Shown here: piece by piece, positions 14,215-16,176 of the stretch
Layout of the letters: every line of letters starts with the position of its first letter
How positions within the stretch are numbered: position 1 is the first letter of the stretch
Assembly (NCBI GenBank): GCA_001552775.1
Contig: KQ959271.1
Coordinates: 102,462 to 143,925, forward strand
Length of the DNA: 41,464 nt
DNA from: Bacteroidales bacterium KA00251
Lineage (GTDB): Bacteria; Bacteroidota; Bacteroidia; Bacteroidales; Porphyromonadaceae
Reading direction: 5' to 3'
Program-made: the position numbers and the translations under genes
Notes under the pieces: generated by a model
Databases searched by the model: none
The model's input: only the letters and a program-made list of their open reading frames with translations
Told to the model about the DNA's origin: nothing

Positions 14215-15231
14215 ATGCAAATTGACTGGTCAAACCTAGGTTTTGGGTACTTCAAAACCGATTACAATGTAAGATGCTACTTTCGCGACGGCAAATGGGG
14301 CGAAGTAGAAGATTCAACAAGCGAAGAAGTAACCGTACACATGGCTTCTACTTGTCTACACTATGGACAGGAAGCTTTTGAAGGGCTTAAGGCCTTCCGT
14401 GGCAAAGATGGTAAGATACGTATCTTCCGTATAGACGAAAATGCAAAGCGTCTTATCCGCTCTGCAGAAGGAGTAGTCATGCAGCCCGTTCCCGAAGAGC
14501 TCTTTACCAATATGGTAAAGCGTGTTGTAAAGTTGAATGAAAAGTTTGTGCCTCCTTATGAAAGTGGAGCCTCTCTCTACATTCGTCCGCTCCTTATTGG
14601 TCTTGGCGCACAAGTAGGTGTAAAACCAGCTCCTGAATATCTATTCCTCATCTTTGTTGGTCCTGTTGGTCCATACTTTAAAGAAGGGTTTAAGCCTACA
14701 CCAATGGCTATTATGAGAGGATACGATCGTGCTGCACCTCTTGGTACAGGTACCCTTAAAGTAGGTGGTAACTATGCTGCTGGTATGGTACCTACTGTAC
14801 TCGCTCACGAAAAGGGTTACAGTGCTTGTCTCTTCCTTGATGCCAAGGAAAAGAAATACATTGACGAGTGTGGTCCTGCCAACTTCTTTGGTATTCGAGA
14901 CAATACCTACATCACACCTGAGTCTACCTCTATTCTGCCTAGTATCACCAACAAGAGCCTTATTCAGCTCGCAAAAGATATGGGATTAAAGGTTGAACGT
15001 CGTCACGTACCAGAAGAAGAGCTCGCTACTTTTGAAGAAGCTGGTGCATGTGGTACAGCTGCTGTGATTAGTCCTATCCTTCGCATTGACGACCTTGATG
15101 AAAACAAGAGCTATGTAATCTCTAAGGATGGCAAGCCAGGTCCTATCAGCGAAAAGCTTTACCACAAACTTCGTGCAATCCAGTACGGCGATGAAGAAGA
15201 TCCATACGGTTGGGTTACTATCCTCGACTAA
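14215..15231 (+). CDS. ilvE: Branched-chain amino acid aminotransferase
   Basis: A 338-residue class IV PLP aminotransferase. The PLP lysine is Lys182 in GTLKVGGNYAAG. Other family blocks are LHYGQEAFEGLKAFRG (48-63), SLYIRPLLIG (120-129) and ECGPANFFGI. It interconverts valine, leucine and isoleucine with their 2-oxo acids. It stands alone between its promoter and a strong terminator. A minus-strand riboswitch transcript faces it from downstream. Confidence 0.95.
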   Translation: MQIDWSNLGFGYFKTDYNVRCYFRDGKWGEVEDSTSEEVTVHMASTCLHYGQEAFEGLKAFRGKDGKIRIFRIDENAKRLIRSAEGVVMQPVPEELFTNMVKRVVKLNEKFVPPYESGASLYIRPLLIGLGAQVGVKPAPEYLFLIFVGPVGPYFKEGFKPTPMAIMRGYDRAAPLGTGTLKVGGNYAAGMVPTVLAHEKGYSACLFLDAKEKKYIDECGPANFFGIRDNTYITPESTSILPSITNKSLIQLAKDMGLKVERRHVPEEELATFEEAGACGTAAVISPILRIDDLDENKSYVISKDGKPGPISEKLYHKLRAIQYGDEEDPYGWVTILD

Positions 15232-15280
15232 AATAGCGTATATTCTCTACTAATTGTAGAGGACCTTCCTATCCCCAAAC

Positions 15281-15322
15281 AAAAGGGAACCTTTGTAAAA
15301 TACAAAAGGTTCCCTTTTTTAT
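15281..15322 (+). terminator. Strong intrinsic terminator after ilvE
   Basis: The arms AAAAGGGAACCTTTGTA (15281-15297) and TACAAAAGGTTCCCTTTTTT (15301-15320) pair with a single bulge, and the stem ends in a T-run. It ends the ilvE transcript. The reverse orientation also has a purine/T-rich flank and might stop minus-strand transcripts. Confidence 0.85.
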
Positions 15323-15333
15323 TTTCATCCATG

Positions 15334-15508
15334 GAGACTGTTGCAAAAGTCAACAGCCTCACAATGTTGCTTGCAAGATTGTCCTGACTTTGCAGAAAGG
15401 ATGAAGCGCAAGGCGCTGGGGGTGAGGTCTGAAGGGAGCATACCTCCGTATTGAGACAAAGCCGAATCCCGAAAGCAACACAGCGATTCGCCTTTATGCA
15501 ACAGTCTC
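15334..15508. mobile_element. MITE-like element, copy 1 (about 175 bp)
   Basis: Terminal inverted repeats GAGACTGTTGCA (15334-15345) and TGCAACAGTCTC (15497-15508) bound a noncoding 175-bp segment. The left end is itself a near-perfect hairpin (GAGACTGTTG paired with CAACAGCCTC). The first 30 bases recur at 41435-41464 with one difference, so this is a dispersed element. It codes for nothing and would need a transposase in trans. No target duplication is obvious. Confidence 0.75.
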
Positions 15509-15547
15509 CAATGAAAGGTGAAGAGAATGAGAAAAGTATAAAATAGA

Positions 15548-15608
15548 ATCCCGCTCTGTCGTATTGATAGTAAAGGAGCTCATCCCTTTGCTATAGACAG
15601 AGCAGGAT
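15548..15608. repeat. Long imperfect hairpin downstream of the riboswitch
   Basis: The outer arms 15548-15560 and 15596-15608 match at 12 of 13 positions; the inner arms 15567-15576 and 15585-15594 match at 9 of 10; the loop is 8 nt. On minus-strand RNA the outer mismatch becomes a G-U pair. There is no T-run, so it may be a structural element of the riboswitch transcript or a mobile-element scar. Confidence 0.6.
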
Positions 15609-15711
15609 AACTACCCGGAGCGTAGCGTTTACCCACAAAGGCAACAAAAGGGGTATACTACGCTTTACGCATTATAAATCCATCTGCGCTTGGATCATGC
15701 GTACTCGGTGC

Positions 15712-15810
15712 TTACAAGGGGAATTGTAATGAAGAAGCAGAGAAAACCTCTAATAGGAACCAACTACCGCAAAGAGTGTGTTCCTTTCTCTGGGTAGTAC
15801 TCGCGACCAT
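15712..15810 (-). CDS. Possible 32-residue peptide after the cobalamin riboswitch
   Basis: This is the first ATG frame of any length downstream of the aptamer (MVASTTQRKEHTL...). It starts about 90 nt after the aptamer and 18 nt after a short palindrome (CCAGAGA-C-TCTCTGG at 15828-15842). It has no recognisable family, signal peptide or membrane segment. It could be a leader peptide or chance. It is listed because nothing else occupies the regulated position. Confidence 0.2.
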   Translation of the reverse strand: MVASTTQRKEHTLCGSWFLLEVFSASSLQFPL

Positions 15811-15899
15811 ATGGAAACGAGATTACACCAGAGACTCTCTGGGTAGATACTAAACAAGTCTTTCCGCCTCTCAGCCGTCCTCGAAGCCGCAGAAATGCT

Positions 15900-16157
15900 T
15901 TGCAGGTCTTCTGACTTATCCCAATGATCCTGCACCTTCCCAAGCTTTTTTCAGATGAAGCTCAGTGGTCAGCTCATCGCCACCTTAGTAGCAATGTCCT
16001 CACAGGTCACAACAAGAAGTTTCGTCCTATTCCACGATCAGAATAGCAAACTCAACTCTTAGGGAAACACAGCAGCGGGACTGTTCGGGATTCACACCCG
16101 ATTCCCTTTTAATTGACGTGAAAGCCCTTTCCTACACGAGGAGGGGAGGTCCGTCAA
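15900..16157 (-). promoter_or_regulatory. Cobalamin (B12) riboswitch, apparently orphan
   Basis: On the minus strand the conserved aptamer core is plain: GGGAATCGGGTGTGAATCCC (16106-16087), then CAGTCCCGCTGCTGTG (16083-16068), and at the 3' end AGTCAGAAGACCTGC (16916-type box at 15916-15902). An upstream stem TTGACG/CGTCAA (16157-16152 with 16118-16113) precedes the core. These elements match the cobalamin aptamer in order and spacing. In Bacteroidota such riboswitches normally control B12 transport (BtuB-like) or synthesis genes. Here the roughly 570 nt downstream hold only a 32-codon frame, a hairpin and a MITE-like element before the convergent ilvE gene. The regulated gene has either been lost or is a noncoding or antisense RNA. 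Confidence 0.9.
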
Positions 16158-16168
16158 ACAAAGCACCG

Positions 16169-16176
16169 CAAAGTTA
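16169..16176 (-). promoter_or_regulatory. Probable promoter -7 box of the riboswitch transcript
   Basis: TAACTTTG on the minus strand fits TAnnTTTG and lies about 12 bp before the first stem of the aptamer. It overlaps the stop codon of the upstream GH3-family gene, so the riboswitch can be transcribed independently of it. Confidence 0.6.

Follow-up and report, generated by a model that had tools for sequence, protein, structure and literature searches.

The window, that is the whole stretch of 41,464 nucleotides analysed here, carries on its minus strand a cobalamin riboswitch whose putative promoter box overlaps the stop codon of a GH3 gene, and beyond which lies the convergent ilvE gene, with a product matching Aminotran_4. 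The span to which the preliminary description had drawn attention, 15510-16176, extends from the edge of a MITE to the -7 box. The features of the locus are as follows.

16169..16176, minus strand: -7 promoter box TAACTTTG, which follows the Bacteroidota pattern TAnnTTTG and overlaps the GH3 stop codon
15884..16178, minus strand: cobalamin riboswitch aptamer (RF00174, 75 bits, gathering threshold 31.5)
16072..16083, minus strand: L5 loop region CAGUCCCGCUGC, from sequence reading
15969..16068, minus strand: peripheral segment of the aptamer, expanded so that 100 nt separate GCTGCTGT from CCACT, and folding into hairpins
15872..15888, minus strand: P13/L13 hairpin region GGCUUCGAGGACGGCUG, with the CGAGG loop kept and the stem altered relative to congeners
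15712..15729, minus strand: hairpin with AAUUCCCC, a possible counterpart (by eye) of the congeners' AUUCCCC element
15619..15664, minus strand: hairpin B, with UUGCC in the loop and followed by UAGU (by eye)
15548..15608, minus strand: terminator hairpin, with 13-nt outer arms that are 92% complementary and an inner stem (inverted-repeat reading and fold)
15575..15586, minus strand: conserved apical loop GGGAUGAGCUCC, identical in nine of 23 Porphyromonas members, on a covarying closing stem
15529..15547, minus strand: U-rich tract UCUAUUUUAUACUUUUCUC after the terminator, from sequence reading
15332..15510, no strand assigned: MITE with 17-nt terminal inverted repeats, outside the RNA and beyond the terminator
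15281..15318, no strand assigned: terminator-like hairpin at the 3' end of ilvE, with a perfect 14-bp stem, a 10-nt loop and U-rich sequence on both sides

A covariance-model scan (cmscan, Rfam) assigned 16178-15884 of the minus strand to RF00174, the score of 75 bits exceeding the gathering threshold of 31.5 and the match covering the full model (1-189); this was the sole Rfam family matched in the window. The aptamer had been described as well preserved and furnished with its own -7 box, and both statements were borne out: the score lies well over the cut-off, all three motifs quoted are present, and TAACTTTG was found at 16176-16169. We take TAnnTTTG to be the Bacteroidota-type -7 motif; the 5' start of the RNA would lie at about 16162. 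The spacing between GCTGCTGT and CCACT is 100 nt in the window versus 25-54 nt in the remaining 22 members of the sub-family described below, and the P13 stem of the window is weak (z -1.03, with 33 of 200 shuffles equally good). Structures of cobalamin riboswitches show a kissing contact between L5 and L13. If the region at 16072..16083 is L5, as we assume, its UCCCG could pair with CGAGGA of L13 when one A is bulged, and the window L13 is still complementary to L5. In favour of such a contact, both partners are swapped (U to A and A to U) in G004 and L252, whereas the U opposite U in five members of the G001 clade speaks against it. The source genome (1.86 Mb in 34 contigs) contains one further B12 riboswitch (L115, G000:C34:172638-172884), located 153 nt upstream of a 2207-aa open reading frame. 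DUF4465 is the only Pfam match of this frame, its start resembles a signal peptide by eye, and it would be an unusual output for B12.

Between the aptamer and ilvE the longest minus-strand open reading frame has 61 aa, and neither the 32-codon frame (15810-15712) nor the other frames of the tail had a convincing relative among 279 other loci, which agrees with the earlier statement that no transport or B12 gene follows the riboswitch. A gene remnant in the tail (15884-15532) was rejected after six-frame tblastn against 279 loci, where the best match had an E value of 0.016 and 36% identity over 56 aa with stops. An origin of the tail from a repeat or MITE was dismissed as well, no second copy of 15511-15884 being present anywhere in the genome. 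Nucleotide similarity between this tail and those of congeners was absent beyond short motifs. Hairpin B folded with a z of -2.85 (3 of 200 shuffles were equally good), and the terminator hairpin together with its tail reached an MFE of -28.4 kcal/mol and a z of -5.38, a value equalled by none of 200 shuffles. Judged from these signals, the RNA most likely extends from about 16162 to about 15535, a length of some 630 nt. A consensus scan found no excess over chance of either sigma-70 promoters (one versus 1.7 expected) or terminators (one versus 1.6 expected); it admits only loops of 3-8 nt and excludes Bacteroidota promoters, and neither of the two terminator-like hairpins named above is listed by it. 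No Rfam family matched the 3' module, and at a loose threshold the region 15230-15890 gave four sub-threshold matches, all overlapping the hairpin on the ilvE side. Inspection by eye revealed no conserved early terminator; an antiterminator formed between P13 and the 3' arm of the terminator, considered in the same manner, was rejected as short, distant and absent in the window.

The same kind of riboswitch recurs throughout the genus. Among 26 Porphyromonas genomes, 23 gave matches to RF00174 (85 in total, 84 above the cut-off), and G003, G007 and G020 (54% complete) were without any B12 riboswitch. Inspection of 83 of the 85 matches (G010:C13:108903 and the sub-threshold G012:C1:1801254 were left out) delineated a sub-family with exactly one member in each of the 23 riboswitch-bearing genomes, and 60 matches outside it. 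In this sub-family the aptamer ends in ACCTGCAA (22 members) or ACCTGCAT (G004) and is then followed, in the window too, by a hairpin with a CGAGG loop, GCUUCGAGGAAAGC or a variant of it. The pattern based on this hairpin motif was composed after the sequences had been viewed, and it fits none of the 60 other riboswitches, which end mostly in ACCTGCC or ACCTGCT; ACCTGCA occurred in none of those read (60 minus five). The sequence TAnnTTTG was found within the flank from -45 to +16 in 21 of the 23 members; the other riboswitches have it there in 50 of 60 cases, and shuffled flanks contain it in 104 of 2000. Members thus defined usually have their own -7 box and possess the P13 hairpin, in most cases a terminator hairpin, and no conserved downstream gene. 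They share the aptamer family with the cis-acting RF00174 riboswitches of Porphyromonas, from which they differ by their aptamer end, the CGAGG L13, the terminator that is mostly their own and the lack of a fixed gene, whereas each of those 60 has a same-strand open reading frame next.

Two further groups of riboswitches were noticed in these genomes. A second Porphyromonas set (L127, L129, L169, L177, L182, L187, L188 and L200) has the L13 hairpin CAATCTCGGGAATAAGATTG and 730 to 1308 nt before the first open reading frame of at least 120 aa, with no small frame common to all; it is possibly a long leader or another RNA. In several congeners, B12 riboswitches (L120, L122, L125, L126 and L134) precede frames to which we assign, from their sequence, a presumable resemblance to 4-hydroxybutyryl-CoA dehydratase.

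The genes that follow the sub-family are strikingly diverse. In 6 of 21 members (G000, G001, G012, G016, G023 and G024), and after none of the 60 other riboswitches, the nearest downstream open reading frame of 120 aa or more is convergent (Fisher p = 1.7e-4). The denominator comprises members with a frame in reach, as the sequences of G021 and G022 end too soon; the raw output was 7 of 21, and a 149-aa minus-strand frame overlapping the RNA in G004 was judged spurious and replaced by metG. This gene, encoding methionyl-tRNA synthetase, comes after the RNA in G004 (L102). The remaining members have a same-strand frame at very different distances, encoding, according to Pfam, an M3 peptidase, Asp-Al_Ex permease, carbohydrate phosphorylase, M20 peptidase, radical SAM protein, methionyl-tRNA synthetase, HlyD-type protein, acyltransferase, ICMT, SprA, GH20 or Lon. 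With the 60 other riboswitches some of the gaps to the same-strand frame are also long, up to 2.6 kb. Among the congeners in which the downstream gene could be read, none has a B12 gene first after the RNA, except that in G009 a TonB-receptor gene comes next, with a second riboswitch between the RNA and the receptor gene. Because it has its own terminator, is followed by no protein gene and exists in copies with unrelated neighbourhoods, the RNA looks like a B12-controlled regulator.

Two simpler explanations of the locus had been put forward, namely that the RNA reaches the 3' end of ilvE as an antisense transcript (compare AspocR and pocR), and that a regulated B12 gene was deleted, perhaps with the arrival of the MITE-like element. 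The convergent orientation of ilvE is in line with the former. The latter can refer to a MITE that is real and repeated: counting the element at 15332-15510, with its 17-nt terminal inverted repeats, the genome contains no fewer than 26 copies with a length of at least 160 nt, 40 of 94 candidates having been scored. However, the terminator precedes the MITE and a further hairpin precedes ilvE, and therefore neither explanation fits. The predicted end of the RNA falls about 300 nt short of ilvE, and the terminator (15608-15548), the MITE and the hairpin at 15281-15318 all intervene. In none of the 24 congeners having GH3 and ilvE do the coordinates place these two genes and the riboswitch side by side, and the closest ilvE-RNA pair, in G008, is 7 kb apart; we consider the antisense arrangement very improbable. 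Against a deletion stand the position of the MITE past the terminator, the lack of a protein remnant in the tail, and the next genes of congeners, none of which is a B12 gene save the receptor gene of G009 with a riboswitch of its own (the sequences of G021 and G022 being too short to count). A deletion is hardly a credible account of the locus. In G023, a MITE copy 94% identical to that of the window lies about 0.7 kb past the aptamer of that genome's own member of the sub-family (L112).

The most characteristic part of the RNA is the tip of its terminator. The 12-mer GGGAUGAGCUCC is identical in the nine members mentioned above, the window among them, where about 0.001 would be expected by chance, and the hairpin that bears it is located 143 to 758 nt 3' of the aptamer. 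In most of the nine, it is preceded by a GCC-loop hairpin and a UUAGUG-like sequence, as judged by eye. None of the 60 other riboswitches has GGATGAGCTC within 2500 nt downstream. The exact 12-mer is absent in 14 of the 23 members, nine of which still fold a strong near-end hairpin, with short U-tracts in several; in the clade of G001, G021, G023, G024 and G025 no strong terminator was found nearby, and those listed included weak candidates only. The possibility that the tip is a generic sequence was rejected: GGGATGAGCTCC gave 33 matches in 26 genomes, nine of them the RNA itself, and the 24 elsewhere compare with 22 for the reversed control. Conservation of the loop sequence is unnecessary for termination by such a hairpin, so that the invariant tip points to another job.

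The RNA is not confined to Porphyromonas. An order-wide search with TGCC..GGGATGAGCTCC matched 14 of 393 genomes (one for the reversed control), of which only G000, G141 and G323 had a riboswitch-like motif upstream. A different signature pattern matched 6 of 393 genomes of the order and led to G141, a member of a second family; a signature match in G264 was discarded as an ordinary riboswitch, 31 nt ahead of a frame resembling a TonB receptor by eye. In this second family, TGCC..GGGATGAGCTCC matched in 27 of 123 genomes, and the reversed pattern in none; the match in G455 lay inside an open reading frame and was not the RNA, which leaves 26 genomes with the RNA. When 20 of 27 second-family loci were compared with Rfam, RF00174 was upstream in all 20 and no other family was matched. 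The search with the complement of the UUGCC hairpin (see below), in which the tip was not imposed, added G462, G478 and G486, again with the aptamer upstream in each, and their tip, GGGAUGAGCGCC, is one letter off. These three members form a small independent test of the tip, which it passed with one substitution. The second family thus contains the RNA in at least 29 of 123 genomes, with the aptamer in 23 of 23 loci tested. Its module consists of UUAAUUAUUUUGCCAUAAUAAUUAG and a terminator; TGCC and the 12-mer were imposed by the search pattern, the rest of the UUAAUUAUUUUGCCAUAAUAAUUAG module was not. In G454 (L234 and L256), two identical modules lie 2.2 kb apart beside a repeated open reading frame.

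Among the second-family loci listed, inspection by eye showed an OMP-like and then a priA-like gene next in many, with other genes, one of them convergent, also occurring. Since these genes often come next, a cis role is possible in the second family. A rival reading makes the RNA a cis attenuator in general, the conserved terminator being its expression platform and B12 deciding on read-through into whatever gene lies downstream. Classical cobalamin riboswitches do work in cis, and the recurrent OMP-like gene would suit such a function; moreover, transcriptional B12 riboswitches occur in ten of 15 Gram-negative taxa, according to an excerpt of PMC12121620. In Porphyromonas, however, the downstream genes differ, the next frame is convergent in more than a quarter of the members with a frame in reach, and the next gene of G009 comes with a riboswitch of its own. 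Conservation of a tip that termination does not need argues in the same direction, and we regard general attenuation in cis as unlikely.

Covariation supports the terminator stem of the module. In 26 second-family modules, 49 both-side changes were counted versus 20.8 (sd 4.0) in shuffles, and the covariation score was 0.204 versus 0.132, neither value being attained in 500 shuffles; the best score with slid partners was 0.107. Both-side changes affected 10 of 19 pairs in the terminator helix but only 1 of 10 in hairpin B, which thus hardly covaries. The tip stem, analysed in 36 sequences from both families (32 distinct, with two of the four pairs varying), was 97.7% paired and scored 0.421 versus 0.206 (sd 0.031) in shuffles, again 0 of 500. 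With a covariance model built from the second family only, the module of the window was missed (12.0 bits, E 2.7, the eighth of 17 hits); on 42 Porphyromonas loci, the best E value of the same model was 0.11, and four of six hits were at the expected place, with two misplaced. No consensus pairs emerged when RNAalifold was applied to 15 tails aligned plainly with MAFFT.

The failure of this model to find the window module is one of several observations compatible with a real regulatory RNA family whose copy in the window is decaying and no longer functional. Because of the 100-nt insert, the largest of the 23 aptamers, and the weakened P13, the window copy may indeed be drifting, and its tail resembles those of congeners in short motifs only. 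Furthermore, B12 riboswitches are missing from G003, which has the best congener match to GH3, and from G007, whose GH3 identity is the highest (68%, in pieces). Nevertheless, the aptamer of the window scores well above the cut-off and the -7 box is retained; the 12-mer of the tip is intact on a compensated stem within a strong hairpin, and L13 remains complementary to L5. Loss of function in the window is, in our judgement, quite unlikely.

If the RNA acts in trans, it should have a target. Pattern searches of Porphyromonas and of a second genus found no target. In the second genus, 51 sites spread over 38 genomes match TATTATGGCAAAA, the complement of the UUGCC hairpin; 17 of them are the known RNA, and the 34 elsewhere exceed the 15 of the reversed control. 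Thirty of these loci were read: 13 were the known RNA, three (L263, L276 and L282) were the further members mentioned above whose tip differs by one letter, and the remaining 14 were all unlike one another, hence no recurring target emerged from the 30. No viral contigs were found.

The nearest known systems are found in the Firmicutes and demonstrate that RNAs of this kind exist. Targets of ANTAR proteins are dual hairpins with A1/G4 hexaloops, and neither the terminator tip nor hairpin B of the RNA described here shows this motif: read as the hexaloop AUGAGC, the terminator tip has A at position 1 and A, not G, at position 4, and the loop of hairpin B differs as well. In EutX and Rli55 of Enterococcus and Listeria, as portrayed in excerpts of PMC5821096 and PMC8079631, a noncoding RNA transcribed separately from a promoter of its own begins with a B12 aptamer, and EutX could in theory sit anywhere in the genome. 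The likeness would lie in a B12 aptamer on a stand-alone RNA, for which a promoter box and a terminator are predicted here. EutX and Rli55 carry a binding element for EutV, an ANTAR protein; the Bacteroidota RNA has another 3' structure with the GGGAUGAGCUCC tip, and no eut gene was seen beside it. AspocR of Listeria is a long noncoding RNA governed by a B12 riboswitch (excerpt of PMC8079631). It is antisense to the neighbouring regulator gene, while the predicted end of the Bacteroidales RNA falls short of the adjacent gene, which varies between genomes. Since its tip lacks an ANTAR-type loop and it has no antisense arrangement, we do not file it with either EutX/Rli55 or AspocR. For Porphyromonas, an excerpt of PMC3764172 describes a riboswitch ahead of PGN_0704, which in P. 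gingivalis is a homologue of btuB, and PMC7160235 reports an up-regulated transcript in which a cobalamin riboswitch precedes a hypothetical protein. A description of this RNA was found neither in the open-access literature searched nor in Rfam 15.

On the basis of this comparative evidence we propose, with a probability of roughly 0.6, that the riboswitch heads an autonomous B12-controlled noncoding RNA which would act in trans via its 3' module. The suggestion of such an RNA in the preliminary description gains support from a sub-family that appears to lack a conserved downstream gene in 23 Porphyromonas genomes and recurs in the second family. The parts of the RNA, their order, their presence in unrelated gene contexts and the covarying stem of the terminator emerge from sequence comparison. 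From 5' to 3', the transcript would comprise a promoter, an adenosylcobalamin-type aptamer, the P13 hairpin, a variable middle, the UUGCC hairpin and an intrinsic terminator tipped by GGGAUGAGCUCC. Transcribed from its own box, it would respond to B12, whose binding to the aptamer could set either the amount of full-length RNA or the exposure of the 3' module; the controlled step may be early termination of the Rli55 kind, access to the tip or RNA stability. The 3' module might then act by pairing with mRNA or by binding a protein, in the way of EutX/Rli55 and AspocR in Firmicutes. We infer a target in trans from the lack of a cis gene together with the conserved tip that termination does not require. 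Even odds could be given to the more specific proposal of a trans-acting, B12-sensing RNA family, common to Porphyromonas and the second family, that would unite sensor and effector in a single molecule, the aptamer sensing B12 and the near-invariant tip GGGAUGAGC(U/G)CC, with the UUGCC hairpin, contacting mRNA or a protein.

In the literature found, as far as the accessible excerpts extend, B12-controlled noncoding RNAs come from a few Firmicutes only. Recurrence of the present RNA in Porphyromonas, probably with P. gingivalis among its carriers, as well as in a second Bacteroidales family would make it a B12-sensing regulator central to organisms that depend on cobamides, and one offering a concrete target for deletion and probing. 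Orphan B12 riboswitches should therefore not be dismissed as remnants of lost genes.
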